64,000 nt of DNA from Actinomyces timonensis DSM 23838. Lineage in GTDB: Bacteria > Actinomycetota > Actinomycetes > Actinomycetales > Actinomycetaceae. The position numbers and the translations under genes were made by a program. The notes beneath the pieces are model-generated. The model ran no database searches and had not been told where the DNA came from. It was given only the letters and a program-made list of their open reading frames with translations. The stretch is taken from NCBI RefSeq assembly GCF_000295095.1, contig NZ_JH806633.1, positions 809,536 to 873,535 of the forward strand. Reading direction: 5' to 3'. Position 1 is the first letter of the stretch. Each line of letters begins with the position of its first letter. Shown one piece after another: positions 26,767-53,182 of the stretch.

Positions 26767-27006
26767 GGCTACGACGCACCAGTCGTAGGAGTAGTCCGAG
26801 CTATATGTCATTGCATTGCAATGTTGGCACCCACAACCAGCCCAGTTGCTCGAACACGTAGCCAACTACTGGCCGCACACCCGGGCGCGCCAACAAGAGC
26901 CAAGACAAACAATTGCAGCAGAGTCGAACGCCTGCCATCGATCGAAATCTCGTCGAACAAGAGAACAATTCAAACCGACAAGAATTAAGAAGAATAGGTC
27001 AGAAAA

Positions 27007-30000: not shown

Positions 30001-30882
30001 CAAGGTAATCTGGACTTGTCGATGGAAAACATTCAACAGTACATCGAACGCTATGGCGTGGATAGATCCTTAGCCTCTCTCCTCAAGGAACGGGAGCCGC
30101 ACATAACTGCAAATGATCCACAATCGGACTACACGCCAATCGCGAAGAGCCTATTGGAGGCCAGGGATGTTCTTACCGCCGAGCGACGCGTGGCGCTAGT
30201 GCAACATTTGCGCACAGAAGAGGAGCAGTTCGGTTCTAGCCACTTCAGGTTCCCATTGACGGCGGAGCAGGTTGAAACTGAGGATAGCCTGCTGGTGGGG
30301 CTCCTACTCGATGCTGGGCTTATTGAAGATACGGCAGCGACGTTTGAGCTTACTCAGAATGCTAGATGGAAGCATCGCGAGTTCGCGATTGCGAAGTCCA
30401 CTGCGTTTAGCGAGTACATGAATGCGTCAGTCGTTGACGCTGACGCCGCGCGGATCGTTGGCAGCAAAATTATTTCCGATGAGATCAAGAGAACGATCGC
30501 CGGCAATATACAGAACTACTGTTCGAATCTCAGCTCTGAGGACTTGAGCCGCGTTGCCGAGTATGCGGTCGACGCTGACGTCGCGGTAGATCTTGTAAGT
30601 CTGAGATGGCTTGTGTCAGCAGAAGTTGAGGCAGACATTATCCTTAGATGTATTGCGGTCACGCTAGACGCGCTCGACGACAATGACGTTTTGAATCTTA
30701 TCGACAACTTAGGAGAGCCGTATTTGCGGCTGAGTCAGCCCGGCGGACGGCAGCGTGTGGACCTGCCGGCATCGCTGCGATTCGACAGGGTTCTTGACCG
30801 ATTGAAGAGGTGCGGCGGCGTGTCGTCTTGGCAGCACGATGACAAGAAGAATCAATACCGAGTGAACTTGAGGCGGAAGTGA
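27007..30882 (+). CDS. YobI/KAP-family P-loop NTPase
   Basis: A 1291-residue protein. Walker A is GPYGSGKSS (58-66); two predicted membrane helices (about 146-161 and 187-203) are inserted between it and Walker B (IVIFEDLDRF, 251-260). That arrangement is diagnostic of KAP NTPases, and the N-terminal layout matches the YobI subgroup. After the ATPase core (to about 480) come some 800 residues of mostly helical sequence with no domain I recognise, plausibly a sensor. Codon use is unlike the neighbours: AT-rich, with TTA and ATA codons that are nearly absent elsewhere, so it was probably acquired. Start is TTG 27007; ATG 27019 is an alternative. Related KAP proteins occur in defence islands, but no effector gene is adjacent. 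Confidence 0.8.
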   Translation: MLDTMAAHLKRKSRSSSHCDTTIELLSPKYIEQEHKVYVDEIEKALRSESCRNLALSGPYGSGKSSILSKVVEMHGSEAVSISLSTLGNQRSSRTPSSRELSEEASSIQKEIIKQLLYMADPRELPRSRFNRLHKAGLRRSLRTPSFISLILVVLLLTTNTLRQVPDFPLDGWNADNLIKNWINFVGKSILVWLIGTIVLWRPVYLVSGRVRFDKLTAGPASIAFDDRPETYFDKYLDEIIYYFEETKHRIVIFEDLDRFDNPEIFEQLRALNTVLNNAQQLRRPRWGRRHRAPIVFIYATRDSIFEQPESAATSFQNAKDDELQSSAPTDDKAVHEIERSNRTKFFDLVIPVVPFITHRNARDALRKQMRTVSHAISSELIDLAARHIPDYRTLVSVRGEYEIYANKILCTGSPDLRPDSLFAMMLYKAVHLKDFEDIRLGQSNLDAVYLKSRELIEHEIVKINGELDEIERKLGGGVLLSERAQELGKVFIELTQILSSTSGYSGNPDCSVDINGTHYDQKEMSNVEPWRLLAETDGSTVTFSYNVNVRDPHCITRSFLASHSLNRQQLSELMKMDLDTLVWEKERREQLSECSRSLSERRQRLRHYDMKDLMEDGDVHVTLEEAKVSFSGYVRARLGSDMAAALVQHGYIDRNFALYCSTYDETALSANAMTFLLRHVEPNSPNVGYPLDEKDIEQLLRDLPANGVAQSGCYNANILAYLLTPDPSNEGYLNQLLAAIVNDGDDERSLLQAYFEHAANTETEVADGKSIRLVTLLAPKHFGLFEVLANLTGVNDRIQRQLVDVAMMNCAPNAEYRAEDVRDMIEQHYREFEGFTGEESDSSASVARVLALSGAKLQDVSPLRGDLYDYVNQSSSYTITRQNLELLAGDKRLNLDDLATRQPAMYAYMLDNLDDYLDALHYPVNYLSALHNTPRINKVFHDLAGLDGISLDTSTVSLDSEKVSDSQVPAIKRILDNTRTEFTLEFVPPALWPIVADQGNLDLSMENIQQYIERYGVDRSLASLLKEREPHITANDPQSDYTPIAKSLLEARDVLTAERRVALVQHLRTEEEQFGSSHFRFPLTAEQVETEDSLLVGLLLDAGLIEDTAATFELTQNARWKHREFAIAKSTAFSEYMNASVVDADAARIVGSKIISDEIKRTIAGNIQNYCSNLSSEDLSRVAEYAVDADVAVDLVSLRWLVSAEVEADIILRCIAVTLDALDDNDVLNLIDNLGEPYLRLSQPGGRQRVDLPASLRFDRVLDRLKRCGGVSSWQHDDKKNQYRVNLRRK

Positions 30883-31126
30883 AAGCCGAAATTTTGCATA
30901 GATCTCCTTAGTTTCCTGGTCAACGAACTTCGATTCCGCCCGATTTCGAACGGTCGTTGGCGATGAGTTCGGGCAGACAATTGTCAAAACTCGCACAGAA
31001 GCATGGATGGAGAGCCCAAGGCTCAACATGTTAGCGAAGGCAGTGCCTCTGAACGCATGCGCCTGACCGCCCGCATTCCGCAGACTCCCGCCACCACGGC
31101 TTCCTCAAGACTCTGTCCTTTCACTA

Positions 31127-31302: not shown

Positions 31303-31338
31303 GAGCCACTGCCCCGGGCCAGCGGGGCCCGGGCGCGG

Positions 31339-31429
31339 TACCCCCACCGGGATTCGAACCCGGGACCTTGTGCTTATCAGGCACGGACGAGGTATAAGCT
31401 CGCTGCTCTAACCGCTGAGCTATGGGGGC
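31339..31429 (-). tRNA. tRNA-Ile with two possible anticodon hairpins (TAT, or GAT)
   Basis: A 91-nt tRNA gene. Acceptor GCCCCCA/TGGGGGT, discriminator A, normal D-arm (GCTC/GAGC) and T-arm (CCGGG TTCGAAT CCCGG). Position 26 is followed by GCGAG CTTATAC CTCGT, a 5-bp stem (one G-T) with a 7-nt loop whose anticodon is TAT (Ile, AUA). The 23 nt before the T-arm contain a second hairpin, GTGC CTGATAA GCAC, whose loop is exactly the canonical Ile-GAT anticodon loop. Either this is a tRNA-Ile(TAT) with an unusual class II-like variable arm, or a tRNA-Ile(GAT) with a 20-nt insertion. The spacing favours TAT. Confidence 0.8.
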
Positions 31430-37525: not shown

Positions 37526-40285
37526 GTGAGCCCCACCAGCGATGCCACACCCCTCATCGATGGCCTCCTGACGAAGGTCGCCGACAACGATCCCGAGGAG
37601 ACCCAGGAGTGGCGCGAGTCCCTCGACGCCCTCATCGCGGAGAAGGGCGGCCCCCGCGCGCGCTTCATCCTGCTGTCGATGCTCGCCGAGGCCCGTAAGA
37701 AGAACGTCACGGTGCCCGGGCAGACCACCACGCCCTACATCAACACCATCCCGGTGGAGGACGAGCCCTACTTCCCCGGCGACGAGACGATGGAGCGCGC
37801 CTACCGCCGCTGGCTGCGCTGGAACGCCGCCGTCATGGTGACGCGCGCCCAGCGCCCGGGCGTCGGCGTCGGCGGGCACATCTCCTCCTACGCCTCCACC
37901 GCCACCCTCTACGAGGTCGGCTTCAACCACTTCTTCCGCGGCAAGGACCACCCCGGCGGCGGGGACCACGTCTTCTTCCAGGGCCACGCCTCCCCCGGCA
38001 ACTACGCCCGCGCCTACATCGAGGGCCGCCTGAGCGAGGACGACCTGGACGGCTTCCGCCAGGAGGTCTCCCACCCCGCGCGCGGCAAGGGCCGCGGCCT
38101 GCCCTCCTACCCGCACCCGCGCCGCATGGACGACTTCTGGGAGTACCCCACGGTCTCCATGGGCCTGGGCCCGGCCGAGGCGATCTACCAGGCGTGGTTC
38201 GACCGCTACCTCGCCGGAGCCGGCATCAAGGACACGAGCCAGCAGCACACCTGGGCCTTCCTGGGCGACGGCGAGATGGACGAGCCCGAGTCGCGCGGCA
38301 TGCTCCAGCTCGCGGCCAGCCAGCAGCTCGACAACCTCACCTTCGTCATCAACTGCAACCTCCAGCGGCTCGATGGCCCCGTGCGAGGCAACGGCAAGAT
38401 CGTCCAGGAGCTCGAGGCCTCCTTCAAGGGCGCCGGCTGGAACGTCATCAAGGTCCTGTGGGGCCGCGGCTGGGACCAGCTCCTGGCCGCGGACAAGGAC
38501 CACGCCCTGGAGCACGTCATGATGGAGACGCTCGACGGCGACTACCAGACCTTCAAGGCCAACGACGGCGCCTACGTCCGCGAGCACTTCTTCGGCCGCG
38601 ACCCCCGCACCGCCGCCCTGGTCAAGGACTGGACGGACGAGGAGATCTGGGCCCTCCAGCGCGGCGGCAACGACTACCGCAAGATGTACGCCGCCTACAA
38701 GGCCGCCACCGAGCACAAGGGCCAGCCCACGGTCATCCTGGCCCACACGGTCAAGGGCTACCTGCTCGGCTCCCACTTCGCCGGGCGCAACGCCACCCAC
38801 CAGATGAAGAAGCTGACCCTGGAGGACCTCAAGGGCCTGCGCGACCGGCTGCACATCCCGATCACGGACGAGCAGCTCGAGGCCAACCCGAAGATGCCCC
38901 CCTACTACCGGCCGGCCGCGGATGACCCCGCCCTGCTCTACATGATGGACCGCCGCCGCCAGCTCGGCGGATTCCTGCCCGAGCGCCGCGACGCCCCCAC
39001 GCAGGTCCAGCTGCCCGGGGACCGCCCCTACGACACCCTCAAGGGCGGCTCGGGCAAGCGCGAGGTGGCCAGCACCATGGCCTTCGTCCAGCTCCTCAAG
39101 GAGCTCATCAAGGAGGATGGCATCGGCCGGCGCATCGTGCCGATCGTCCCCGACGAGTCGCGCACTTTCGGCCTGGAGTCGCTCTTCCCCACGAAGAAGA
39201 TCTTCAACACCCAGGGCCAGAACTACACGCCCGTGGACGCGGAGATGATGCTGTCCTACCGCGAGTCCACGGACGGCCAGATCATGCACACCGGCATCAA
39301 CGAGGCAGGCTCCGCCGCGCTCTTCCAGGTGGTCGGCACGAGCTACGCCACCCACGGCGAGCCGATGATCCCCGTGTACATCTTCTACTCGATGTTCGGC
39401 TTCCAGCGCACCGCGGACCAGTTCTGGGCCGCCGGCGACCAGCTCACGCGCGGATTCATCATGGGCGCCACCGCCGGCCGGACGACGCTGGCGGGCGAGG
39501 GCACCCAGCACATGGACGGGCACTCCCCGCTCATCTCCGCCACGAACGAGGCCGTCGTCACCTACGACCCCGGCTACGCCTACGAGATCCGGCATATCGT
39601 GCGCGACGCCCTCGAGCGCTGGTACGGGCCGGAGTCCGGGCGCAACCGCGACGTCATGTACTACCTCACCGTGTACAACGAGCCGATCCACCAGCCGGCC
39701 GAGCCCGAGGACGTCGACGTCGAGGGGATCATCAAGGGCATCCACCGCCTGTCCGGCCCGGCCGACGGCGACGGCCCCGAGGTCCAGCTCCTCGCCTCCG
39801 GCGTGGGCCTGCCCTGGATCGAGGAGGCCCGCCGGGTGCTCGCCGAGGACTGGGGCGTGCGCGCCTCCACCTGGTCCGTGACCTCCTGGAACGAGCTGCG
39901 CCGCGACGCGCTGGCCGCGGAGAGGGAGAACTTCCTCAACCCCACCGGCGAGCAGCGGGTGCCCTTCGTGACCTCCCGGCTCCAGGAGACGCAGGGCCCG
40001 TTCATCGCGACGTCCGACTACGACCACCTCGTCGCCGACCAGATCCGCAAGTGGGTGCCCGGCAGCTACCACACGCTGGGCGCTGATGGCTTCGGCTTCT
40101 CCGAGACGCGTCCGGCCGCGCGCCGCTTCTTCCTCATCGACTCGGCCTCCGTGGTCGTCAAGGCGCTGCAGGCGCTGGCCGATGAGGGCAAGCTCGGGCG
40201 CGACGTCGTCGCCCAGGCGATCGCCCGCTACGACCTGACCAACGTCAACGCCGGCACCTCCGGCTCCGACGGTGGGGAGGCCTGA
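37526..40285 (+). CDS. aceE: Pyruvate dehydrogenase E1 (homodimeric)
   Basis: Decarboxylates pyruvate using thiamine diphosphate and acetylates lipoyl-E2. 919 residues, the usual AceE length. Motifs: [20 protein letters not shown], the thiamine-diphosphate motif beginning [12 protein letters not shown] and ending at [14 protein letters not shown], and [10 protein letters not shown]. The transketolase-like central domain has [13 protein letters not shown] and [10 protein letters not shown]. Start GTG with SD AAGGAAGAGG. It ends at a 20-bp perfect hairpin. Its E2 and lipoate genes are at the left edge. Confidence 0.97.
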
Positions 40286-40303: not shown

Positions 40304-40348
40304 GCGACGGGGCCCGGCTGGTGTCGATCACCAGCCGGGCCCCGTCGC
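40304..40348 (+). terminator. Strong terminator after aceE
   Basis: A 20-bp perfect stem (GCGACGGGGCCCGGCTGGTG with CACCAGCCGGGCCCCGTCGC), loop TCGAT, 18 nt after the aceE stop. It isolates aceE from the acyl-CoA cluster downstream. Confidence 0.9.
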
Positions 40349-40528
40349 GTCAACGCTCACCGCCTCGCGCGCCGCTCCCAGTGGGAGACTCCCCCGCACC
40401 CCGCCGGGGGCGCCCTGGCTCCCGCGCCAGTTCCGCGCCTCCCCGGCGGCGCGCTCGCCCCTCCGATGGACGTGATCGCTGGCCGGGGACTTCGATCCCT
40501 CGACTGTGCCACCATTCACATCCAGCGT

Positions 40529-40547
40529 TTGTACTACCCGGTTAGTT
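40529..40547 (+). promoter_or_regulatory. Candidate operator of the acyl-CoA cluster (copy 1)
   Basis: TTGTAC-N6-GTTAGTT, about 90 bp before the first gene of the cluster. It contains a near-perfect 14-bp palindrome, ACTACCCGGTTAGT. The same pattern with the same spacing (TTGTAC-N6-GTTAATT) is found at 49594-49612 before the Fix genes. The TetR gene inside the cluster is the likely partner. The surrounding 350 bp from aceE holds only the terminator and this region. Confidence 0.5.
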
Positions 40548-40634
40548 CATATCACGGGCGGCCGAGGCCCATGCGCCCCTCACCGGGCCCGCGGGCACGC
40601 ACCGATCAGACAGACGCCGTCGAAGGAGACGCCG

Positions 40635-41816
40635 ATGATCACATCGAAGCCGAAGAACGACGAGGAGTTCCAGCAATACCTCATGGAGATCCGGGAGCTC
40701 GCCCAGGGCCCCTTCGATGAGCTCCAGACCGAGATCGAGGTGACCAACAAGTTCCCGGACGAGTTCTACGAGCTCGCCAAGGAGCACAACCTCTACCGCT
40801 TCTACATGCCCGAGCAGTACGGGGGCTGGGGCCTGAGCACCCTGGAGATCATGAAGGTGCAGGAGGAGTTCTCGCGCGGACCCGGCGGCATGCGCATGCA
40901 CCTGCACCACGCGGCCGGTCTCAACTGGCGCATCATGGACGACTTCGCCCAGCCGGAGCTCAAGGAGTGGGCGATGCCCCGCTTCCAGAACAAGACCCTC
41001 TTCGTCAACTTCGCCCTGACGGAGAAGGAGGCGGGCTCCGGCGCCGACATCAAGACAACCGCAGTGCGCGACGGCGACGAGTGGGTCATCAACGGGGAGA
41101 AGACCCTCATCTCCCACACCGACTGCTCGGACGGCACCTACCTCATCACCCTGACCAACCCCGAGGCGGACAAGGACAAGCGCCTGACTGCCTTCTTCGT
41201 GCCCACCGACACCCCCGGCTACGAGATCGTCGACATGCCCCACATGATGGGCTGCCGTGGCGCCGGGCACGCCGGCCTGCGCTTCACCGACTGCCGGGTC
41301 CCGGACAAGTACCGCCTCGGCGAGGTCGGCGAGGGCCTCCACGTCGCCATGTACTCCCTGGGCCTGTCCCGCCTGCACATCGCCGACTCCAACCTCGGCA
41401 TGGCCCAGCGCATGCTGGAGATGTCGATCGCGCGGGCCAAGGAGCGGATCACCTTCGGCAAGCCGCTCATCAAGCGGCAGGCCATCCAGACGATGATCGC
41501 CGAGTCCGGCAAGTGGATCTACCTGCTGCGCTCCGCCATCCACGACGCCGCCCGTCGCTACGACGCCGGAGAGGACCCGATGACCCAGGCCTCGCTGTGC
41601 AAGCTCGCCTCGATCGACGCCGTCAAGATCGTCTCGGACAACATACTCGAGATCCTCGGTGGCATCGGCTACTTCGAGGAGTGCGAGTACGGCCCCGCCG
41701 AGCGGCTCTACCGCGACTGCCGCGCCATGTGGCTCGAGGAGGGGCCGCCCTCCGTCCAGCGCACGACCGCCGCCAGGGGCCTGATCACCAGCGGCGGCGA
41801 TCTCTGGAACTCCTGA
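40635..41816 (+). CDS. Acyl-CoA dehydrogenase / enoyl-CoA reductase
   Basis: A 393-residue FAD enzyme of the acyl-CoA dehydrogenase family, starting at ATG 40635 with SD GAAGGAGA. Features: N-terminal helical domain, the FAD/substrate strand NFALTEKEAGSGADIKTTA, VINGEKTLISHTD, the C-terminal RITFGKPLIKRQAIQ and LEILGGIGYFEECEY, and a Glu in the usual base region (WLEEGPPSVQRTTAARGL). With a CoA-transferase and Fix electron-transfer genes next door, it likely reduces an enoyl-CoA in the way CaiA does, but substrate is not determined. It is the only enzyme of this cluster without a visible lesion. Confidence 0.85.
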   Translation: MITSKPKNDEEFQQYLMEIRELAQGPFDELQTEIEVTNKFPDEFYELAKEHNLYRFYMPEQYGGWGLSTLEIMKVQEEFSRGPGGMRMHLHHAAGLNWRIMDDFAQPELKEWAMPRFQNKTLFVNFALTEKEAGSGADIKTTAVRDGDEWVINGEKTLISHTDCSDGTYLITLTNPEADKDKRLTAFFVPTDTPGYEIVDMPHMMGCRGAGHAGLRFTDCRVPDKYRLGEVGEGLHVAMYSLGLSRLHIADSNLGMAQRMLEMSIARAKERITFGKPLIKRQAIQTMIAESGKWIYLLRSAIHDAARRYDAGEDPMTQASLCKLASIDAVKIVSDNILEILGGIGYFEECEYGPAERLYRDCRAMWLEEGPPSVQRTTAARGLITSGGDLWNS

Positions 41817-41955
41817 ACCAGGCCCCTTGAGCGCCACCGGCGACCGGATGGCACGAGCCCGACCCGGCCACCAGTGGCGCCCTCCCGCCCGGGGGCGCGC
41901 GGCGACGCCGCCCCCGGGCGCACCTGTCAGAACCTTCACGAGAACCGAGGAAGAC

Positions 41956-43179
41956 ATGAACTTCCTCAGCGGAATCAAGGTCGTCGACATGACGGCATTC
42001 CTGGCAGCTCCCACCGTGGCTCGGATCCTCGGGGAGTGGGGCGCCGATGTGATCAAGGTCGAGGCGCCCAAGGGCGATCCCGGCCGCACCCAGGGCGCCG
42101 TCTTCGGCACGCCCTACACCGACGACGAGAACCTCGGCTTCGACATGTCGAACATGAACAAGCGCTTCGTCACCCTGGACCTCCGCCAGGAGGCCGGGCG
42201 CGAGGTCATGGACCGACTTCTCGCCGACGCCGACGTCTTCCTGACCTCCACACGTGTGAAGTCCCTGGTCAAACTCGGCTACGACTTCGAGACCCTCCAC
42301 GAGCGCTTCCCCAGGCTCGTCATGGCCCAGGTCCTGGGATTCGGCGCCAAGGGCCCCCTCAAGGACGCCGCCGGATTCGACATGACCGCGTGCATGTCCC
42401 GCGGCGGGGTCCTGGGCACCACGGTCAACCGGGGCTCCAGCCCCATGATCCCGCCCAACGGCTACGGGGACTTCCAGGTCTCCTTCGTGCTCGCCTCGGG
42501 AATCCTCGCCGCCCTCCTGGGCCGCGAGCGCAGCGGGCAGGGGGACTACGTGACGACCTCCCTGTTCCACTCCGGGGTGTTCATGCTCAACACGGCCATG
42601 GTGGCGGCGCAGTACGGCAGCGCCTACCCCAAGGACCGCCGCGAGGTCATCAACCCCTTCAACAACACCTATGTCGCCCGCGATGGGCTCATCATGACGC
42701 TGTGCGCGCCCGAGTACGACCACGACTTCGACAAGGTCATGACGCTGCTCGGGCGCGAGGACCTCACCGGCGACACCCGGTACAACATCTGCGACACGAT
42801 CAATGACCAGGGCCTCAACGGCGAGGTGGTCGACATCCTCGACGCGGCCTTCGCCACGAGGGACCGCCAGTACTGGCTCGATCTGTTCCTCAGCAATGAC
42901 ATCCCCATCGAGGCCTGCCAGCTCCCCACGGATGTCTAGGAGGATGAGCAGGCGTGGGCCAATGATGTCCTGCGCACCGTCACCTGCGCCTCGGGGGCGC
43001 AGCGGATGATCCCGACCAACCCTGTGCGCTTCAGCTCCCAGGGGGACCCGGAGCTCCGGCTGACGCGTGCCCAGGGATCGGACACCGCGGATGTCATGGC
43101 CGAGCTCGGCTACTCCCCCGAGCAGATCGCGGACCGCCTCGCCTCTGGCGCCGTCATCGGCACCACGCCGCGCGTATGA
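41956..43179 (+). pseudogene. Class III CoA-transferase with internal amber codon
   Basis: A CaiB/HadA-type CoA-transferase that would swap CoA between an acyl-CoA and a free acid. SD GAGGAAG precedes ATG 41956. Motifs: FLAAPTVARILGEWGADVIKVE, with the catalytic-region Asp in GFDMTACMSRGG, and NPFNNTYVARDG. The reading frame stops at TAG 42937-42939 (codon 328), yet the same frame continues with good family sequence (EDEQAWANDVLRTV ... RMIPTNPVRF) to a TGA at 43177. Full length would be 407 codons. Many relatives have an aromatic residue at this site, so a TAC/TAT or TGG to TAG change is the likely cause. Confidence 0.88.
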
Positions 43180-43245
43180 GGAACTCTCCATCCATCCCCG
43201 GGTCACACCCCTGAGAGCACCCGACCGACCTGGGAAGGACCCCCC

Positions 43246-44467
43246 ATGACCACGACTACGACTCCCGCCTCAGGCGCCTCCAGTCGCAAGTACTGGATCA
43301 CCGCCGCGTTCCTCTACCTGTCCTACTTCGTGCTGGGCTTCTCCCTCTTCGCCCAGGCCCAGTACAAGCCCGCCCTGGCCATCCAGTGGTCGACGAGCGT
43401 CGAGGGCGTCTTCTCGGCCATCGCCTGGATGATGGTCGGGCGGCTCATCGCCTATCCCCTCGCCGGGCCGGTGGCCGACCGCGTCTCCCGGCGCCTGGGC
43501 GCCATCATCGGCGCCGCCCTGCTCGCCCTGTCCTTCATCGGCATCATCATGGTGGGCTCGTCCACCATGGGCGTGGTCATGTGCGTCGTTGCCGGCATGG
43601 GCAACGGCTTCCTCGACCCCGCCGTCTACCCGGCGCTGTCGGAGGTCTTCGAGTCGAAGGCGCATATCGCCAACCTCTTCCTCAAGTTCGCGATCCTCGT
43701 CGCCCAGTTCCTCCTGCCCTTCCTCATCTCCCACACGGGCGGGTCGGGCCACGACGGCGGGTTCCGGACGATCTACATCGCCTACGCCGTCATCATCGCC
43801 GTCGTCATCGTGGGGCTCGCGCTCTCGCCCTTCCCGCCCAACGCCTCCCATGGCGACGCCGCGGCGAGCGCCAGCGCCGAGAGCGCCGCGGGCTTCCGCT
43901 TCGACACGACGGTCCTCATGATCATGGTCCTGGGCGCCACCACGATCACCACCTTCACCCTCTGGGGCAATTCCAACCAGGAGCTCGGCAAGGCCTACGG
44001 CATGGCCGATCCCGGGAGCACCCAGAGCTGGTACGCGGCGGGCGCGATGGTGGCGATCCTCGTCTCGACCGTTCTGCTGACGCGGGTGCGCGTCACCCAG
44101 ATCATCGTCGTCTACCCGCTCATCTCCGCCATCACGCTGCTCGCCGTGTACTTCATCCACGCGGCCTGGATCGTGCCCGCCGGTGGGTTCATTATCGGGT
44201 GGACCGCCGCGGGCGGGGTGCTCCAGCTGGTGACCTCGCTGGCGAACTCGCTGTTCCCCCCAGTCCCGCGGGCTCATGACCTCCCTGGTGATGATCGCCT
44301 CCGCCGTGGGGGCCTTCGGATTCCAGCAACTCGCCAAGCCATGGGTCGCCAGCGCGCCGGGCAACGTCGTCCTGCTCAACGCCATCATCACGCTGGTGGG
44401 CGTCGGGGTCGCCGTCATGGTCGACCGCGTCGAGAAGCGCCGGCTCGCCTCAGTGCCAGCGGCGTAG
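43246..44467 (+). pseudogene. MFS transporter, frameshifted at a C run
   Basis: A major-facilitator transporter of about 400 residues, starting ATG 43246 after SD GGGAAGGA. Helices run well to about 44255. There the frame changes at TTCCCCCCAG: with one C fewer the sequence continues LFPQSRGLMTSLVMIASAVG and on to the stop at 44467 (KRRLASVPAA). As given, translation runs on in the wrong frame for about 110 codons. The extra base lies in a run of six C. Substrate unknown; position suggests import of the acid handled by the cluster or export of its product. Confidence 0.85.
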
Positions 44468-44482
44468 CCGAGGAGCAGCGCG

Positions 44483-45184
44483 ATGCCGCACCTCCGACCC
44501 ACGAGCGGGGCCGTCGGCTCCATGCTGGAGTTCTACGACTTCTTCATCTACACGCAGGCCGCCGCCCTCGTCTTCCCATCGGTGTTCCTCCCCTCCGATG
44601 ATCCCAGTCTTGCGATCATCGCCTCCCTGGGGACCTTCGGGGTGGGCTACCTGGCCCGTCCAGTCGGCGCCTTCACACTCGAGGCGATGGGCGACCGCGT
44701 CGGGCGCCGTCGCACGCTCATCCTGACGATGGCGCTCATGGGCGCCCTCTCCTTCGCCTACCTGTGGGCCATCACCCATGGGCGGCTCTGGCTGACGCTC
44801 GTGATCGGCCTGGCCATGTGGGGCGTCCTCTACCAGGGGTACAACGCCGTCTTCCCGTCGTTCTTCCCCGAGCTCTTCCCCACCGCCACGAGGGTGACGG
44901 GCATGGCCATCGGGCAGAACATCGGCACCGCGGCCTCCTCCCTCATGGCGATGGTCTTCGCCGGGCTGTGCCCTCCGGGCAGCGGCGCGGGATCCATCGT
45001 CCTCATCGTCGGGGGCCTCACTCTCCTCCTCACACTCTCGGTGGCGCTCGCCGCGTGGGCGAGCCCCGAGACCCATCTCTCACGCGCCGAGGATCTCGAC
45101 GCCGCGCATTCACGAGCCTCGGCGCGCCCCGGGCGCGCCAGCGCCCCAGCCCACCCGATCACAGAGAAAGGCCGGCAGCCATGA
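44483..45184 (+). pseudogene. MHS-family transporter with internal deletion
   Basis: A metabolite:proton symporter (ShiA/ProP-like MHS group). The start matches the family's first helix (GSMLEFYDFFIYTQAAALVF) and helices 2-3 with RPVGAFTLEAMGDRVGRRR. Near residue 85 (about 44738) the sequence jumps to the second half (ALSFAYLWAITHGRLW ... LFPTATRVTGMAIGQNIGTA). At 233 residues it is roughly half the usual 430-450, so about 200 residues including helices 4-7 are missing, in frame. Its stop overlaps the next ATG (ATGA). Confidence 0.83.
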
Positions 45185-46334
45185 CAACCACCCTCACCGA
45201 CGAGCAGCAGCTCCTCCTCGACTCGGTCAAGGAGTTCGTGTGGAGCGAGGTCGCCCCGCACGTCGCCCAGCGCGATCGAGACAGCCAGTGCGAGCGCTCC
45301 GACTTCGCCCCCGCCTTCGAGCTCGGGCTCCACCTCCTGGAACTGCCCGAGGAGTACGGCGGGGCGGGCATCGACTACCGCACCGGCGCTATGCTCTTCG
45401 AGGATCTCGGCAAGGTGGACGCGGGCTACGCCATCACGCTCGTGTCGACGTTCGTGGCCTTCCGCAACGTCCTCATCGCGGGCACCCCCGAGCAGGCCCG
45501 CCTCTTCGCCGACACCATCGCCGACGGCGGCCTGGGCTGCTTCGCCATCTCCGAGCCGGGCGCCGGCTCCGACGCCGCGGCGATCCGCACCACCGCCGTG
45601 CGCGACGGCGACGACTACGTCCTCAACGGGCAGAAGTGCTGGATCACCAATGGCGGGATCGCGGACATCTACCTCATCTCCGCCAAGACCGATCCGAGCG
45701 CCGGGGCGCACGGCATCTCGACTTTCCTCGTCGAGGCCGACCGCGAGGGCCTCTCCCACGGCCGCCACGAGGACAAGATGGGCCTGCGCACCTCGAACAC
45801 CTGGACCTCACGCTCAACGACGTCCGGGTGCCCGCGGATCACCTCGTGGGCGCCGAGGGCGAGGGCTTCCGCATCGCCATATCCGGGCTCGACATCTCAC
45901 GGCCCTTCATGGCGACGATCGCGGTGGGGATGATGCAGCGCGCCCTCGACGAGGCCGCCGTCTACGCCCTCCAGCGCGAGCAGTTCGGCAAGCCGATCTT
46001 CGAGTTCCAGATGGTCCAGGACATGCTCGCGCGCATGTCGGCCAAGATCGTCGCCTCGCGCGCGCTGGTGGAGCACACGATGCGGCTCGTCGACGAGGAG
46101 CAGGACGTGCAGAAGGACGGGGCGATCACCAAGCAGTTCGTCACCGACGTCCTCCAGGAGGTCGTCTCCGACGCCGTCCAGGTCATGGGGGGGGGCAACG
46201 GGTACACCAAGGAGTACCCGGTGGAGAAGATCATGCGCGACGCCAAGGTCTTCCAGATCATGGAGGGGACCAACCAGATCCAGTCCATCGTCATTGCGCG
46301 CCGCCTCAAGAAGGAGTACGCGGCCCGACTGTGA
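45181..46334 (+). pseudogene. Second acyl-CoA dehydrogenase, frameshifted
   Basis: A short-chain acyl-CoA dehydrogenase-like protein starting ATG 45181, overlapping the previous stop. The first part is sound: FEDLGKVDAGYAITLV, FAISEPGAGSDAAAIRTTA, LNGQKCWITNGG. After KMGLRTSNT at about 45800 the frame is lost; the frame one base back continues DLTLNDVRVPADHLVGAEGE to RRLKKEYAARL and stop 46334, including QREQFGKPIFEFQ and the base-containing IMEGTNQIQ. One missing base would restore about 384 residues. It is more like butyryl-CoA dehydrogenases than the first paralogue. Confidence 0.87.
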
Positions 46335-46397
46335 CGTCCGGGCCCGCCCAGGGCGGGCGGCCGGGCACTCCAGGGCATCGTTGATCGGGAGGGAAGC

Positions 46398-47913
46398 ATG
46401 ATGGGCACCTCGGTATGGGAGCGGCGGGGCCGTAGGCCCGCGCCAGCCGCCCGGGCATCGGCCTGGCGGCGCAGCGGCTGGTGGGGGGGGACCACGGCCT
46501 CATCGACTGGTGGGACCTGGCGGTGCGCGCCAGCCCCGAGGCGCTGGCGGTCGTCGACCGGGCGGGGCGCTCCTACACCTATGCCGAGGCGGACGCAGCG
46601 TCGTCGAGGCTCGCGTCGTGGCTCGTCGAGCGCGGCGTCGGGCCCGGCGACCTCGTCCCCGTCCAACTGCCCAACTGGTCGCAGTTCCTACCGGTGCTCA
46701 TCGCGGTGGCCAAGAGCGGGGCAACGATCGTCCCCCTGTCCCCCATGGCGTGCCTTGCCGAGTGGGCCGACGTGGTCGAGCAGTGCGAGCCGAGGGTGGC
46801 GATCCTGCCCGACCGGTTCCGCCGCGCCGACTACGCGGCCATGGCCCGCGAGCTCCTCGCCTCGCCGGGGCCGGTGCGCGACGTCCTGCTCGTGGGAGCG
46901 CCCGAGGACGAGCCCCTGGCTGCCGGGGCGCGCCGCTTCGAGGATGTCGTGCGCGACACGGCTCCTCTGGCCCGCGAGGACTGGAGGCGCTCGGCGGGCG
47001 ACGACATCGCCGCGATCCTGTTCACCTCCGGCTCCGAGGCGGCCCCCAAGGGGGTGATGCTCTCGCACAACAACATGATCGCCTCCGAGGAGGCCTTCGC
47101 CTACGCCCTGCGCCTGGGATGCGACGACGCCATCTTCATGCCCTCGCCCCCTGGGCCATGCCACGGGCTTCCTCCACGGCGTCATCATGCCGGTCCTCAC
47201 CCGCGGCGCCTCCGTCCTGTGCGACTCGACCGATGGCGCCGAGATGGCGCGGCTCCTCCAGGAGCACGGGGCGACCTGCGGGATGTCTGTGCCCGCCGTC
47301 ATCGACATCATCCTGTGCCAGTGCGAGGGCCACGGGGCACGCCTCGATCGGCTCCGGTTCCTGTGCTGCGGCGGGTCACCGGTGCCCAGGCGCCTCCTCG
47401 AGCGGGCCCGCGCCCTGGGGGTGCGCCTGTACTCGGTGTACGGCTCGACCGAGCACGCCCCTCACACGCTCACCACCTTCCAGGACTCCGACGAGCGGGT
47501 GCTGACCACCGACGGGAGCGCCTGCCCTGCCGCAGAGGTGAGGATCGTCGACCCGGACACGCGCCAGCCCCTGCGAGGTCGAGCGCGTGCTCATGGACCA
47601 CCCCTCGATCGAGCAGGCCGCAGTGGTCCCGGTTCCAGACCCCGTCATGGGGGAATGCTCCCTGGCGTGCCTGGTGACGCGCCCGGGTGAGCCGCGGCTC
47701 GACATCCCGGCGCTCAGGCAGTGGTTCGTCGGCAAGGGGGTCGCCAAGTTCAAGACGCCCGAGCTCGTGGAGCACCTGGATGGCCTGCCGATGACCGGCT
47801 CGGGCAAGATCGATCGGGTCTCCCTCAAGCGCCGCTTCGCCGGGCTGGCTCCTCCGGATCGGCGGCGGAGCCCTCGGCGAGGCAGCGGCAGTTCTCCCGA
47901 TGCGGGCAGGTGA
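46398..47913 (+). pseudogene. Acyl-CoA ligase (CaiC-like), multiple lesions
   Basis: An AMP-forming acyl-CoA synthetase. SD GGGAGG precedes ATG 46398, but the frame for the enzyme (GLIDWWDLAVRASPEA, RSYTYAEADAAS) is entered only after a run of eight G at 46483-46490, suggesting a slip there. The P-loop is FTSGSEAAPKGVML. At CCCCC 47147-47151 the frame breaks again; one C fewer gives PSPLGHATGFLHGVIMPVL. After VRIVDPDTRQPL (about 47570) about 90 residues, including the hinge/TGD region, are missing and the sequence resumes EVERVLMDHPSIEQAAVV. It ends SGKIDRVSLKRRF. It overlaps the end of the convergent TetR gene by 89 bp. Confidence 0.86.
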
Positions 47914-48583
47914 GGACCATGCCGAGCACCGTCCGCTCGATGAGCGAGCGGACATGGGGCGCGTCGTCGCCGAGCATGTCGCGCCCGAATGCGAGCCGGA
48001 ATGTCGAGCGGTGCTCGATCCGGTTGAAAATGAGGGCGGACAGGACCTGGTGCACATCGAGGGCGCTGGGGGCATCCGGTCCTGTCGCGAAGTCCCCGCT
48101 GAGGCGGCCGCGCTCCAGGATCCTGGAGATGGTCTCGACGGCGGAACCATTGATCCTCTTGAACTCCTCAATGCCCTCGGCGACGGCGCCGTGCATGATG
48201 AGGTTCTCCATGGCGACAATGCGCGCCAGATCCGGATGGCGCTCGTAGTGCGCGAGGGAGGCCCGGACGAGTTCCCGAAGAGCGGCCGGGGGCTCGAGAT
48301 CATCGAGGAAGAGCGCGGACTCAAGAGCGCGGATCCGCAGGTAGTTCTCCTCCAGGACGGCTCGGTAAAGGCCGCTCTTGGACTCGAAGTAGTAGAAGAT
48401 CATCCGCTTGGAGGTATTGGTCCGGCGGGCGATGTCCTCGGTGCGGGCGCCGTTGGGGCCATGAGCGGCGAACTCGTGGACGGCGGCCTCGAGGATCTCC
48501 GACCGGGTGAGCTCGGGATCCCTCCGGGAGTTCCTCGCCCGTCCGTTGGCATCGTCCTGGTCACTCAATCCTGCGGCTCCCAT
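47825..48583 (-). CDS. TetR-family regulator of the acyl-CoA cluster
   Basis: A 252-residue repressor with an intact helix-turn-helix (GARTEDIARRTNTSKRMIFY, about 44-63) and a TetR_C ligand domain. The last 20 residues contain CPHRENCRC, an unusual cysteine-rich tail. The gene lies in the middle of the cluster, convergent to the CoA ligase. It is one of only two genes there without visible damage. The shared motif at 40529 and 49594 may be its operator. Confidence 0.9.
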   Translation of the reverse strand: MGAAGLSDQDDANGRARNSRRDPELTRSEILEAAVHEFAAHGPNGARTEDIARRTNTSKRMIFYYFESKSGLYRAVLEENYLRIRALESALFLDDLEPPAALRELVRASLAHYERHPDLARIVAMENLIMHGAVAEGIEEFKRINGSAVETISRILERGRLSGDFATGPDAPSALDVHQVLSALIFNRIEHRSTFRLAFGRDMLGDDAPHVRSLIERTVLGMVLTCPHRENCRCLAEGSAADPEEPARRSGA

Positions 48584-48631
48584 GCGTCATTCCCTCATCG
48601 TCCTTCCGCGCGAGCCCGAGCCGTTCTCAGA

Positions 48632-49586
48632 TCACCGAGGGCGCTGAAGGGCCCCGCGCGACCCGCAAAGGATACAACGCCCGGCCATTCCGACCTCATC
48701 GGCCACATCGGCCACATCGGCCATCATCCGCGTATTCGGGGGAAGAACCGAGCCGGCGCCCACGGAATCGGGCCCCGATCCGCGAGGGCCGCCCGCGATA
48801 TCAGCGGCGCGGGATTCCCCGATCAGATAGTCGCTCAGGGCCCTCGCCGCCCGGGCGCCACGGCCGATCGACACAGTGGCCGTGCGCCGATCGGCGCGAT
48901 CCATATGGATCGGCTGGCGCCAGATCGTCGCCCTCTCGACGACCGCCATGCACCTCGAGGCCCCCGCTGCCCAGATCATGCCGTCGCGCCCCTCCATCGC
49001 GCGCTCGATCCTGCGCACCGGGGAGGACAGCGCCACCTCCATCCGCCCGTCGACCAGGCGCGAGATCTCGCCGTCGAGGATCCACCGGGGCAGCCGGCGC
49101 TCGGATATGCCGCGCCGCAGCATCCCGCCCAGCGCGTGGTGCGCCTCGAGGAGCACGACCTCATGACCGGCGAGCACGAGCTGGTGGGAGGCGGACAGCC
49201 CGCACGGCCCCGAGCCGACCACGGCGACGCGCTTACCGGTGGGCGCCCCCGGCTCCCCCAGCGCCCAGCCGTCGTGCAGGGCCAGCTCGCCCACCGCGGC
49301 CTCGAGCCCCTTGATGCCCACCGCTCCCCCGTTCATCCGCCTGGTGGCCAGGACGCAGCCCGACTCGCACGGCGCGTAGCAGATGCGCCCCATGCAGGCG
49401 GGCAGGGGTTGGCGCCGACCATCAGCTCCCAGGCGCGGCGGGCGGCGCCCCACTGGAGCGCGCTCAGCCACTGGCGCACCGGCTCCTCGGAGCGGCAGCG
49501 GTCCTCACAGGGCGCGGGCCGCATGAGCCCGTCGGAGGCGGCGCCACTGCCACCATGACGGGACCTTGGACCTTGTAACCCCGATC
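48632..49586 (-). pseudogene. GltD-like FAD/NADPH oxidoreductase, frameshifted and deleted
   Basis: Remnant of a glutamate-synthase-small-subunit-like flavoprotein. It begins at ATG 49586 with an N-terminal cysteine region (PAPCEDRC) and PVRQWLSALQWGAARRAWELM. One base is missing near 49400 (…NPCP / ACMGRICYAPCESGC). The FAD site VAVVGSGPCGLSASHQLVLAG and GGMLRRGISERRLPRWILD are good. Then about 150 residues of the central NADPH domain are absent; the end TATVSIGRGARAARALSDYL is recognisable. Sequence after that (48632 to about 48830) is not family-like. It is divergent from the Fix genes and may have supplied their electrons. Confidence 0.82.
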
Positions 49587-49593
49587 TCACCAT

Positions 49594-49612
49594 GCCACGA
49601 TTGTACCCATCA
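49594..49612. promoter_or_regulatory. Candidate operator of the acyl-CoA cluster (copy 2)
   Basis: TTGTAC-N6-GTTAATT, 7 bp upstream of the oxidoreductase start and about 115 bp upstream of the fixA-like start, in the divergent promoter region. It matches copy 1 at 40529-40547 in 12 of 13 fixed positions with identical spacing. Unlike copy 1 its centre is not palindromic. Confidence 0.5.
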
Positions 49613-49726
49613 GTTAATTGTGGGGCGTGGGAATCACGCGAACACCACCTGACCAGGGACGCGACGTCGCGCCACCGCACCGCAAGCACGAGAGCACACG
49701 CACACGTCATACAAGGAGAGGCGCCG

Positions 49727-50623
49727 ATGACTATCGCCGTGGCCTACAAGTGGGCAGCAAATCCGCAAGACGCCGCGGTCGTCAAGGCCCCCGGCATGAA
49801 GGACATCCTGGCAGCGGGCAAGAAGAAGGTCGACGTCGTCAGCCCCGAGGCGCCCACGGCCACCCTCGAGGTCGTCTCCCTCAGCCGCCCCGAGCCGCGC
49901 AGCCGCAAGAACAGCATCCTGCCCAACGCCGAAGAGCTCATCGACGCCGGTCCCGGGGACCTCATCCTCGCGGCGGACCGCGCTGCCGAGCGCGTCATCG
50001 CCGGCGCCGTCGCCGCCCGGCTCGACGCGCCCGTCCTCACCGGGGTCACCTCGATCAGCGACGGCGCCGTCACGCGCGCGAGGTACGGCGGGCTCACGCT
50101 CGAGACCGTCCGCTCCTCGCGGCCCATCGTCATCATCGCCCCCGGCGGCTCACCCGTCGCGGGCGAGCCGGTGGCGCCCGAGGCGGCCAGCACCGAGGAG
50201 AGCCCCTACCCCGCCTCCATCACCGCCCAGTCCGGCGCCGAGGCGGCCCAGGCGGACCTGTCGACCGCCAAGACCATCGTCGCCGGCGGGCGCGGCTTCA
50301 AGGCCAAGGAGGAGCTCGGCCTCCTCGAGGACGTCGCCGCCGCCCTGGGGGCGGAGACGGCCTGCTCACGGCCCCTGGCCGAGACCGTCGACTGGATGCC
50401 CAAGTCCCGCTGCATCGGGGTCTCCGGCCAGAAGGTCCACCCCGACCTGTACATCGCCGTGGGCATCTCCGGCCAGATGCAGCACATGGCCGGGGCGAGG
50501 GACTCGAAGACGATCGTGGTGATCAACTCCGACGCCGAGGCGCCCATCTTCGCCCAGGCCGACTACGGGGTCGTCGGCGACCTGACCACCGTGCTGCCCG
50601 CGCTCGGGAAGGCGCTCCAATGA
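49727..50623 (+). pseudogene. fixB: Electron-transfer flavoprotein beta/alpha remnant (fixA-fixB fusion)
   Basis: One 298-codon frame with SD AAGGAGAGGC. Residues 1-16 (MTIAVAYKWAANPQDA) are the start of FixA (ETF beta). The frame then jumps to the beta C-terminal region (PGMKDILAAGKKKVDVVS) and, near residue 62-66, to the middle of FixB (ETF alpha: AGAVAARLDAPVLTGV). From there the alpha FAD domain looks complete: TIVAGGRGFKAKEELGLLED, GVSGQKVHPDLYIAVGISGQ, INSDAEAPIFAQADYGVVGD. FixA and FixB together should have over 500 residues, so more than 200 are missing, in frame. The alpha FAD domain might still fold. It overlaps the fixC start (ATGA). Confidence 0.83.
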
Positions 50624-51528
50624 CCTCCGCCGCCGCGCAGGAGGACGACGAGGTCTTCGACGCCTTCGTCGTCGGCGGCGGCGTGGCGGGCACGGTCTGC
50701 GCCTACCAGCTGGCCTCCCAGGGGCACGAGGTGGTCCTCATCGAGCGCGGCGACGAGCCCGGGGCGAAGAACCTCTCCGGCGGCGTGTTCTACTGCCGCG
50801 TCATGGAGGAGGTCTTCCCGGGCTTCGTCGAGAAGGCCCCGGTGGAGCGGCGGATCACCCGCAACATCGTCTCCTTCCTCAACGAGGCCTCGTCCGTCGA
50901 CATCGACTACTGGGACCAGCGCCTGCACGAGCCGGCCAACGCGGTCTCCGTGCTGCGCGCCCGGGTGGTCGTCTGCGCCGACGGCGTCAACTCCTTCCTG
51001 GCCCGCCAGGCGGGGGTGCGGGACAAGGAGCCCATGAAGAACCTCGCCGTCGGGGTCAAGTCCGTCATACGGCTGCCGCGCGCCACCATCGAGGACCGCT
51101 TCCGGCTCACCGAGGACGACGGCGTCGCCTACGCCATCGTGGGGGACGCCACCCAGGGCTGCGCGGGAGGTGGGTTCCTCTACACGAACACCGAGTCCGT
51201 CTCCGTCGGCGTGGTGCTCAGGCTCGACGACCTGGTCGCCAAGGGCCTGCGCAGCTCCGAGGTCCACGACCACTTCCTCGCCTTCACGACCGACGAGGAG
51301 CAGAGCCACATCCACGTCAACCAGGAGATCGCCCGGGCCACCGGCACCGGGAGGCTCCTCGTCCGGGTCTGCCCCGCGCACGTGTACAGCGAGGAGCCGG
51401 ACGGGACCATCTCCGTCGAGTACGCCGCCTGCCTCGAGTGCGGCACATGCCTGGCCGTGGCCGCGCCCGGGGCGCTGACATGGCACTACCCCCGAGGGGG
51501 CTACGGGGTCTCCTTCCGCGAGGGCTGA
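50620..51528 (+). pseudogene. fixC: FixC-FixX remnant fused in frame
   Basis: One 302-codon frame. Residues 1-113 are the start of FixC (flavoprotein:quinone-type), with FAD motif VVGGGVAGT and GAKNLSGGVFYCRVM. About 60 residues are missing at 113-115. 115-220 is the FixC middle (VVVCADGVNSFLARQAG, FLYTNTESVSVGVVL). Near residue 220 about 150 FixC residues are gone and FixX follows. FixX keeps its four ligand cysteines (CPAHVY, then CLECGTC) and ends ALTWHYPRGGYGVSFREG. The absent parts include the quinone-facing domain, so the protein is probably inactive. Confidence 0.83.
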
Positions 51529-51592: not shown

Positions 51593-53062
51593 CTACTCGC
51601 CCTCGGCGACCTCGACGGGGGTGACGGAGGGGTCGGCGCCCGAGTAGTGGTGGGCGTCCCGGTACCGGGGGCGCAGGAGGTTCTCCGCGCTGAGGAGCTC
51701 GTCGAGGACGGATTCCTCCAGCAGGCCCATCTCCAGGACGACCTCGCGCACCGAGCGCCCGGAGCGCGCGCACTCGCGGCCCACGAGGTCCCCGTTGTGG
51801 TGGCCGATGACCTCATTGAGATAGGTGACGATGCCGATCGAGTCGAGCACGTTGCGCCGGCAGACCTCCTCGTTGGCCTCGATGCCCGAGACGCACAGGT
51901 CGCGCAGGACGCGCATGGCCCGGCGCAGCAGGTGGATCGACTCGAAGGCCGCCTGCCCGATGACGGGCTCCATGACGTTGAGCTGGAGCTGGCCGGCCTC
52001 GGCCGCCATGGTGACCGTGAGGTCGTTGCCGATGACCTTGAAGCAGATCTGGTTGACGACCTCGGGGATGACGGGGTTGACCTTCGCGGGCATGATCGAG
52101 GAGCCCGCCTGGCGCTCGGGCAGGCGGATCTCCGCCAGGCCCGCGCGCGGCCCGGAGGACAGCAGCCGCAGGTCGTTGCAGATCTTGGAGAGCTTGACCG
52201 CCAGGCGCTTGATCGTGGCGTGCATGGACACATATGCGCCGGTGTCGCTCGTGGCCTCCAGGAGGTTCTGGGCCCCGGAGACCGGCAGGCCGGTGACCTC
52301 CTTGAGGTGGCGCACGGCCGTCTCGGGGTAGCCGGGGGGCGTGTTGAGGCCGGTGCCGATGGCGGTGGCGCCCAGGTTGACCTCCAGCAGGAGCGCGCTG
52401 TTGTGCATGAGGCGCGTGATCTCCTCATCGAGCAGGACGGCGAAGGCCTTGAACTCCTGGCCCAGGCTCATCGGGACCGCGTCCTGGAGCTGGGTGCGCC
52501 CCATCTTGAGGACGTCGTGGAACTGGCGGGACTTGTCGAGGAAGGCGTCGATGAGGTCGCACAGGTCCGCCTCCATCCCGGCCACCGCCTGGTAGAGGCC
52601 CAGGCGGAATCCGGTGGGGTAGGCGTCGTTCGTCGACTGCGACTTGTTGATGTGGTCGTTGGGGTTGACGACGTCGTAGCGGCCCTTGGCGTAGCCCAGG
52701 TGCTCCAGGGCGAGGTTGGCGACGACCTCGTTGGTGTTCATGTTGAGGCTCGTGCCCGCCCCGCCCTGGAAGACGTCGACGGGGAACTGGTCCATGCACC
52801 GCCCCTCGACGAGGATCTCGTCGCATGCCCACAGCACAGCGTCGGCGAGCTCGGGGTCCAGCGTCCCCAGCTCGAGGTTGGCCAGGGCGGAGGCCTTCTT
52901 GACCTGGACCATGCCCCGGACCAGCTCCGGGACGTCGCCGATGGTCGTGCCCGAGATCTGGAAGTTCTCAATGGCCCGCAGCGTGTGGATGCCCCAGTAG
53001 GCGTCGAGGGGCACCTCGCGCGATCCCAGGAGATCCACCTCGGTACGAGTCGCCGGTCGCAT
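51593..53062 (-). CDS. aspA: Aspartate ammonia-lyase
   Basis: Splits aspartate into fumarate and ammonia. 489 residues, starting at ATG 53062 with a good SD (GAAGGAGA). The class II fumarase/aspartase fold is clear: [35 protein letters not shown], and the signature [15 protein letters not shown] that carries the catalytic serine loop. The gene is intact, in contrast to the cluster upstream. As a source of fumarate it would fit anaerobic respiration, but no fumarate reductase is in view. It diverges from fasR. Confidence 0.95.
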
Positions 53063-53182
53063 GTCTGTCTCCTTCGCTAGGATCTCAGGGCCGACGGAGC
53101 GGGCCCCATTCCCCGCCCCATCGCGCCTCAATCGGGTGCTCTACATTATCCCCGGCACGCGCGCACTGGGTAGCATCTGACC

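Follow-up and report, generated by a model that had tools for sequence, protein, structure and literature searches.

The window analysed here, a 64,000-bp stretch of contig NZ_JH806633.1 of Actinomyces timonensis DSM 23838 (positions 809,536 to 873,535; coordinates below are counted from its first base), contains at 40.6–51.5 kb, between aceE and aspA, a cluster of 12 genes encoding two acyl-CoA dehydrogenases (ACAD1 and ACAD2; CoA, coenzyme A), a class III CoA-transferase, two transporters of the major facilitator superfamily (MFS1 and MFS2), a CoA ligase, a TetR-family regulator, a GltD-like flavoprotein and FixABCX. This is a pseudogene cluster, with lesions that are evident against intact orthologues and absent from the neighboring genes. 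In our view the region likely represents what is left of a decaying operon for the CoA-dependent reduction of an unsaturated carboxylic acid, an operon with which the host could probably have used an unsaturated organic acid instead of oxygen. A horizontally traveling enoate-reduction operon, now being lost, is the most likely description of the system.

Structure and lesions of the cluster

The cluster genes were assigned to families with Pfam and NCBIfam models, and every component that a preliminary description of this DNA had listed (two acyl-CoA dehydrogenases, a class III CoA-transferase, a ligase, two transporters, a TetR, a GltD-like protein and FixABCX remnants) was found to be present. 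Six genes are encoded on the forward strand: (i) ACAD1 (40635..41816), open and encoding 393 amino acids (aa) with a conserved LEEG motif; (ii) the CaiB-like class III CoA-transferase (41956..43176), interrupted by an amber codon at 42937-42939; (iii) MFS1 (43246..44467), frameshifted near 44256; (iv) MFS2 of the 2A0106 family (44504..45184), which lost its start and about 648 bp internally; (v) ACAD2 (45181..46334), frameshifted near 45803; and (vi) a FadK-like, AMP-forming acyl-CoA ligase (46487..47895), with a frameshift near 47146 and 209 bp deleted near 47564. The reverse strand encodes the TetR-family regulator (47825..48583), which is open, and the GltD-like (PRK12771-type) flavoprotein (48632..49620), with a frameshift near 49405 that is the net result of several small indels. 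The fix genes, again on the forward strand, are reduced to two fusions: fixA'-fixB' (49727..50623), in which fixA with about 498 bp deleted is joined in frame to a fixB devoid of its N-terminus, and fixC'-fixX' (50620..51528), in which a fixC lacking 135 bp and its C-terminal two-fifths is joined in frame to fixX. The FixB, FixC and FixX pieces were recognized by family models; the fixA remnant is visible only in comparison with intact FixA.

Lesions were called from a global alignment of the window with the intact operon of another genome of the genus (G013, locus L109); the DNA identity of the two is only about 73–90%, so small indels were not counted. The total is 12 lesions (one amber codon, four frameshifts and seven deletions measuring 100 bases or more, the latter including, besides those given above, about 107 bp at the MFS1/MFS2 boundary, 248 bp at fixA/fixB and 581 bp at fixC/fixX), which hit 10 of the 12 genes and leave only ACAD1 and the TetR gene undamaged. 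Full-length copies in other genomes polarize these differences as losses in the window, and alignment with such intact copies bears out the earlier statement of at least ten lesions (one amber, four or five frameshifts and several deletions). The lesion of the GltD-like gene is the least certain of all, since the G013 gene itself is short, at 367 aa against 460 and 493 aa in two other genomes.

For a control screen, 62 open reading frames (ORFs) of G013 were chosen by codon use in 171 kb and sought in 220 kb of the A. timonensis genome. Of these, 37 were scored, 31 as open and 6 as flagged. Within the cluster 4 of the 7 scored ORFs were flagged (CaiB, MFS1, ACAD2 and the ligase), the other three passing as open, while the two flagged outside it were resolved on inspection as a stop coinciding with the natural gene end and an over-long start, respectively, so that 0 of 30 scored genes outside the cluster were convincingly broken. 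Of the outside G013 ORFs flagged in an earlier comparison, two had stops ahead of the recognized domain (DUF3052, deformylase) and one lay opposite a better-scoring ORF. The screen required 40% coverage and is therefore blind to genes with very large deletions; MFS2 and fixA, among the nine cluster ORFs picked, went unscored. The lesions are thus concentrated in the cluster, as had been claimed before, and the flanking genes previously reported as undamaged, aceE to the left (37526..40285, forward strand; 919 aa, 84% identical to that of G013) and aspA to the right (51593..53131, reverse strand), are both open. Long ORFs further to the right, at 53183 and 54764, are also open.

Intact and partial counterparts

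Among the matches listed from 49 genomes of the genus (that of A. timonensis included), only G013 contains a colinear cluster besides the window. Its 12 genes are open, arranged in identical order and also located between aceE and aspA; a stop in the alignment of its MFS2 lies beyond the ORF end at 10702. Propionibacterium acidifaciens DSM 21887 carries 11 of the 12 genes, all open, lacking MFS1. In Actinobaculum sp. oral taxon 183, a member of the same family as A. timonensis, ACAD1, CaiB, MFS1, MFS2, ACAD2, the ligase, TetR and the GltD-like gene are open; the stretch read there yielded no fix genes. In G013 and P. acidifaciens fixA, fixB, fixC and fixX are contiguous, in this order and all open, against the remnants seen in the window. 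ACAD1 shares 96% amino acid sequence identity with its counterpart in G013 and 92–93% with that of P. acidifaciens. In a pattern-based genome scan, the ACAD1 relatives among the matches listed shared 93, 89 and 66% identity, after which the values dropped to 34%.

A wider search with ACAD1, covering whole genomes at a strict threshold, revealed relatives at 57–66% identity in 8 of 395 other genomes drawn from the phylum, located in one further family, and in 7 of 194 genomes drawn from the family of Clostridium ragsdalei, C. ragsdalei itself included. Thirteen ACAD1 loci were fetched (nine from the phylum set and four from the C. ragsdalei family), and in all but one of them (L169) other ACAD, CaiB, ligase, Fix or Etf relatives were found near ACAD1; this gene association is therefore repeated in distantly related anaerobes. 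The neighboring acyl-CoA dehydrogenases share 28–37% identity with ACAD2 in the phylum set, and 56–59% in the four clostridial loci. Another family of the phylum carries ACAD1 paralogues, two in genome G570 and three in G486 (L166, L175, L176), near genes that we take, by motif, to be LysR-like; these paralogues may constitute an expanded family acting on unnamed substrates. In a genome of the C. ragsdalei family (L172, 7754-9396), the ligase gene of a homologous cluster appears to be split into two ORFs, possibly another lesion.

Predicted function

An acyl-CoA dehydrogenase, CoA activation enzymes and a dedicated electron carrier are co-localized in the cluster, which is the combination by which a CoA-dependent enoate reductase operon was recognized, and the reductive acyl-CoA/FixABCX type previously proposed for the cluster is supported both by this co-localization and by the gene families. 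The C-terminal LEEG motif is invariant in all 13 ACAD1 sequences aligned, and it aligns with what we take to be the catalytic-glutamate region of ACAD2. The best models of ACAD2, the ligase and fixC were acryloyl-CoA reductase, medium-chain acyl-CoA ligase and PRK10015, respectively, each below its cut-off. The curated cut-offs for FixA and FixC were missed in G013 as well (PRK03359 FixA, 104.7 of 219 bits; PRK10157 FixC, 352.1 of 610 bits), and the G013 proteins are relatives, not equivalogs, of these two. No hydratase, thiolase or 3-hydroxyacyl-CoA dehydrogenase was present among the family hits of the cluster genes; because of the missing hydratase and thiolase, enoate reduction with a CoA loop appears to be the likeliest use. 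The direction of the reaction and the class of substrate are what we infer.

In its intact form (G013, and P. acidifaciens without MFS1), the system would operate as follows. The acid, imported by an MFS carrier, would be primed as its CoA thioester by the AMP-forming ligase; thereafter new substrate would receive its CoA from the reduced product through the CaiB-type transferase. Reduction of the enoyl-CoA would be the task of ACAD1 and ACAD2, with electrons delivered by FixABCX and the GltD-like flavoprotein, and TetR would control the pathway via operators placed before ACAD1 and before fixA. In A. timonensis the pathway is dead, with large parts of fixA, fixC, MFS2 and the ligase gene lost and six more genes damaged.

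The carnitine-derived substrate previously suggested was rejected on the curated cut-offs and the transporter type. The crotonobetainyl-CoA dehydrogenase model NF002885 (cut-off 540) gave 108.6 bits with ACAD1 and 198 bits with the G013 ACAD2, the L-carnitine CoA-transferase model NF002914 (cut-off 413) gave 77.3 bits in the window and 99.8 bits in G013, and the carnitine-CoA ligase model (cut-off 651) gave 200.2. Both transporters belong to MFS_1, not to the BCCT type of the carnitine antiporter.

Putative TetR operators

A 21-base near-palindrome precedes ACAD1 in the window (40529..40549, forward strand), G013, P. acidifaciens and Actinobaculum sp. oral taxon 183. A matrix seeded with these four sites and the fixA-side site of G013 produced matches independent of the seeds before ACAD1 in genomes G076 and G104, beside the GltD-like gene in the same two genomes, and before fixA in P. 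acidifaciens and in the window (49601..49621, forward strand), the last being more diverged than the ACAD1-side site; G065, G094 and C. ragsdalei scored weakly. A whole-genome search with the ACAD1 site, allowing up to three mismatches, returned one match, the site itself (none with the reversed control), hence the fixA-side site differs from it by more than three mismatches. The element is likely a TetR site, TetR binding being predicted here from the sequence. The TetR gene is open and both likely operators survive in the window. An operator-like match at 29767 lies within a long ORF and was taken as chance. In P. acidifaciens a further near-palindromic, operator-like site (L139+L140, position 39032; score 19.7) is located outside the cluster.

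Substitution pattern

Nonsynonymous and synonymous changes (N/S) were polarized with outgroups and assigned to the window branch or the G013 branch. For ACAD1, CaiB and ACAD2 together, N/S is 19/67 in the window and 13/49 in G013 (Fisher P=1); for MFS1, MFS2, the ligase and fixABCX it is 78/57 and 44/58, respectively (Fisher P=0.027). All broken genes together, ACAD1 and TetR being left out, gave 91/102 and 54/93 (P=0.06). TetR was placed in neither of the two groups, and the GltD-like gene was omitted because its segment was misframed (78 changes, 5 stops). The CoA enzymes thus look still constrained, and the transporters, ligase and fix genes look relaxed. The "advanced decay" of the preliminary description holds for the structure, with its 12 lesions, but not for the substitutions, which have relaxed little as yet. 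As the structure is wrecked while the substitutions are hardly relaxed, decay should be recent. It also seems uneven, with transport and electron supply, outside the core CoA enzymes, lost first; this order is deduced from the substitution pattern.

History of the aceE-aspA site

aspA was found in 48 of the 49 genomes, and 30 loci were retained. Of these, 27 have aceE close to aspA without the cluster, among them those of the three closest relatives of A. timonensis (G006, G008 and G016), whose aspA is 95–96% identical to that of the window and with which the C-terminal half of AceE shares 97–98% identity. The emptiness of the site in the nearest relatives and the survival of the likely operators had both been missed before. 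The empty intervals measure about 67 bp to 1.4 kb, and a search for operon remnants in the 27 sites gave only matches of 13–18 bases, treated as chance. A terminator-like hairpin directly after aceE (40304..40351, strand unassigned) is common to the three closest relatives, where it lies between aceE and aspA (local alignment score against G008, 86; maximum of 50 shuffles, 50). Between aceE and aspA of genome G026 (L212, 11870-13264) there is a lone MFS2-type pseudogene with internal stops, in the same orientation and 75.6% identical to the G013 protein over 299 residues. A tree of aceE and aspA from 30 species groups the window with G006, G008 and G016, and G013 with G017 and G009.

The region before ACAD1 is homologous between the window and G013 (alignment score 102, against at most 47 in 50 shuffles). 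The protein distance between these two, relative to Actinobaculum, is 0.36–0.63 in three cluster genes, and the value for aceE (0.52) lies within this range. Synonymous divergence (dS) between the window and G013 is 0.35–0.84 in the cluster and 0.35–0.88 in other genes (ACAD1 being counted with the 28 outside genes, and aspA not being used), which fits common descent. However, CaiB shows a synonymous difference of 0.40–0.42 from G013, P. acidifaciens and Actinobaculum alike, and across the same comparisons the values climb only from 0.28 to 0.38 for ACAD1 and from 0.29 to 0.46 for ACAD2. Synonymous sites therefore look partly saturated, and dS, as weak evidence on vertical versus lateral descent, was given little weight as a clock. 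P. acidifaciens is far closer to the window in the cluster (ACAD1, 92–93%) than in aceE (64%), which indicates that the cluster moves over long distances. The aceE-aspA site was probably occupied by the operon in an ancestor of the genus, with repeated loss thereafter; a single ancestral insertion is what we infer. An old occupant lost many times, together with separate horizontal travel to P. acidifaciens, is somewhat favored over repeated arrival.

Alternative explanations

Several explanations of the lesions compete with decay. Sequencing or assembly errors could be suspected at three of the four frameshifts, which lie at or beside runs of 4–6 C or G; but seven large deletions and an amber codon are not homopolymer errors, no scored gene outside the cluster proved broken, and the 2.93-Mb genome is 99.95% complete in four contigs, which makes this a very improbable source of the damage. 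It is just as hard to credit that the two fix fusions and the shortened MFS2 are retained, functional mini-proteins. Among the six deletions of at least 100 bp within or between coding sequences, five preserve the reading frame (P=0.018 if 1/3 is expected), and the result is two neat ORFs without a stop, linked by an ATGA overlap (GTGA in G013) and with the fixX cysteines kept. Yet direct repeats of 6, 7, 8 and 9 bp spaced 100–700 bp apart in the intact genes of G013 are in frame in 70, 78, 85 and 86% of cases (base-shuffled copies, 26–34%; low-GC C. ragsdalei genes, 51–61%), so the fusions may need no selection; with 0.70 as the expectation the excess is gone (P=0.42). Moreover, the lost parts comprise most of fixA and the C-terminal two-fifths of fixC, including the GDAAG motif, and the window branch shows no reduction in N/S for the fix genes, though counts are small. 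Repeat-mediated deletion is a plausible mechanism, microhomology at the deletion ends being clear in two of six cases (fixA/fixB, 9/10; fixC, 8/10); the other four do not exceed random expectation, in part owing to two deletions that the aligner split, and should these four have arisen otherwise than between repeats, the frame excess would lack an explanation. A third explanation, that the operon is being trimmed instead of dying, would have TetR, the operators and the open ACAD1 selected as a residual regulated enzyme working with housekeeping Etf, and transport, ligation and Fix discarded; species across the genus would be undergoing this trimming side by side at a single site, the stages being the whole operon, the relic and the empty site. 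Another Etf alpha gene (35–39% identity) is present in all six members of the genus tested, so the surviving ACAD1 need not be without an electron partner; the low N/S of ACAD1 is no proof of its use, because that of the frameshifted ACAD2 is equally low. We regard trimming as improbable.

Our own interpretation, an ancestral enoate-reduction operon in recent decay, has several points against it. The lesions were read in one strain of the species; FixABCX is able to run either way; the P value behind the order of decay is modest, and the gene grouping was made post hoc, after the data were seen; GC3 is about 0.95, and synonymous sites are partly saturated; and on the 30-species tree a single origin needs about nine losses without G026, or about ten with it, the alternative being three arrivals at one site, and these multiple losses left no visible scar at the empty sites. 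An oxidative pathway, in which a saturated acid would be converted to enoyl-CoA and the electrons passed via FixABCX to quinone, could draw on the sub-cut-off match of FixC to Pfam PF05187, on the relationship of FixC to electron transfer flavoprotein (ETF)-quinone oxidoreductase and on the reversibility of acyl-CoA dehydrogenases. It is unlikely, given the lack of β-oxidation partners noted above (hydratase, thiolase and 3-hydroxyacyl-CoA dehydrogenase) among the cluster family hits, the acryloyl-CoA reductase model that ranks best for ACAD2 (below cut-off), and the clostridia among the relatives found. A more serious rival concerns history: the lineages of A. timonensis, G013 and G026 may each have received the operon at the aceE-aspA site by a separate horizontal transfer, and the others may never have had it. 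The 27 empty loci, those of the three closest relatives included, the three gains in place of about ten losses and the closeness of the P. acidifaciens ACAD1 despite its distant aceE all speak for this. It would, however, require the identical site and orientation three times; the repeats at the cluster ends are not beyond chance (longest direct repeat 10 bp, inverted 9 bp; shuffled maximum 11 for both), and no integrase occurs among the family hits of the cluster genes; the window-G013 protein distances bracket that of aceE, and the homology extends into the region before ACAD1. Separate arrival is accordingly a tentative alternative, and ancestral presence with repeated loss the history we retain.

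Comparison with known systems

The cluster represents an example of operon erosion in a known kind of system, not a new one. It resembles the ydi operon of Escherichia coli (ydiO, ydiQRST, fadK), in that the G013 ligase is closest to PRK06087 (547.6 bits), fixC to PRK10015 (394.4 bits) and fixA to PRK12342 (114.9 bits), models that we take to be FadK, YdiS and YdiQ; all these scores are below the curated cut-offs, and the present cluster contains two acyl-CoA dehydrogenases along with a CoA-transferase of class III, a pair of MFS carriers, TetR and the GltD-like protein. With caiTABCDE-fixABCX of E. coli, which serves carnitine reduction, it shares an acyl-CoA dehydrogenase, a CaiB-type transferase, a ligase and FixABCX, but no BCCT-type carrier or CaiD-type hydratase was found among the family hits of the 12 genes. 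The C. ragsdalei cluster has the same core genes (ACAD1-CaiB-ACAD2-Etf-ligase, with ACAD1 66% identical), in which EtfAB-like genes replace FixABCX; a gene nearby is, judged by motif, presumably a LysR-type regulator.

In the caffeyl-CoA reductase CarCDE of Acetobacterium woodii, an NADH-linked acyl-CoA dehydrogenase and bifurcating EtfAB reduce enoyl-CoA (PMC5861303). Chain C of 6fah is among the PDB matches of both ACADs; the present cluster has FixABCX instead of EtfAB, and two acyl-CoA dehydrogenases. The bbu (gamma-butyrobetaine) cluster of Emergencia timonensis comprises an acyl-CoA dehydrogenase-like flavoenzyme, a BCCT carrier, two class III transferases, a ferredoxin and a thioesterase (PMC8364193). 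The likeness, judged by gene content, lies in the flavoenzyme and the class III CoA-transferase; compared with the bbu genes named there, no BCCT carrier, thioesterase, second transferase or di-cluster ferredoxin other than fixX was present among the family hits of the 12 genes. No paper on the present cluster appeared among those listed by a literature search, though one may exist.

At one chromosomal site the order of gene loss can thus be tested along a series whose stages are intact (G013), partly decayed (the window), reduced to the relic of one gene (G026) and empty. The system also points to an acyl-CoA dehydrogenase family, here without a named substrate, that is common to P. acidifaciens, oral Actinobaculum, clostridia and another actinobacterial family, and whose regulon the candidate operator could define. 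The fix fusions illustrate that in GC-rich genomes deletion remnants tend to remain in frame and can mimic fused genes.

Other features of the window

At the DNA level aceE (37526-40285) is 91% identical to its G013 counterpart at the 5' end and less than 80% identical at the 3' end, perhaps as a result of recombination. An AT-richer islet at 26500-31000 (about 52–53% GC over 27–31 kb, against about 70%) encodes, at 27007-30882, a 1291-aa YobI-like P-loop NTPase whose first ~315 residues match PADLOC Tmn (8.3e-49); it adjoins two tRNA genes and is perhaps an anti-phage defense insertion. At 31337-31429 ARAGORN predicts a 93-base tRNA-Ile with the anticodon TAT and a long variable region, adjoining a tRNA-Leu (TAA); such a tRNA-Ile looks unusual for a GC-rich actinobacterium.

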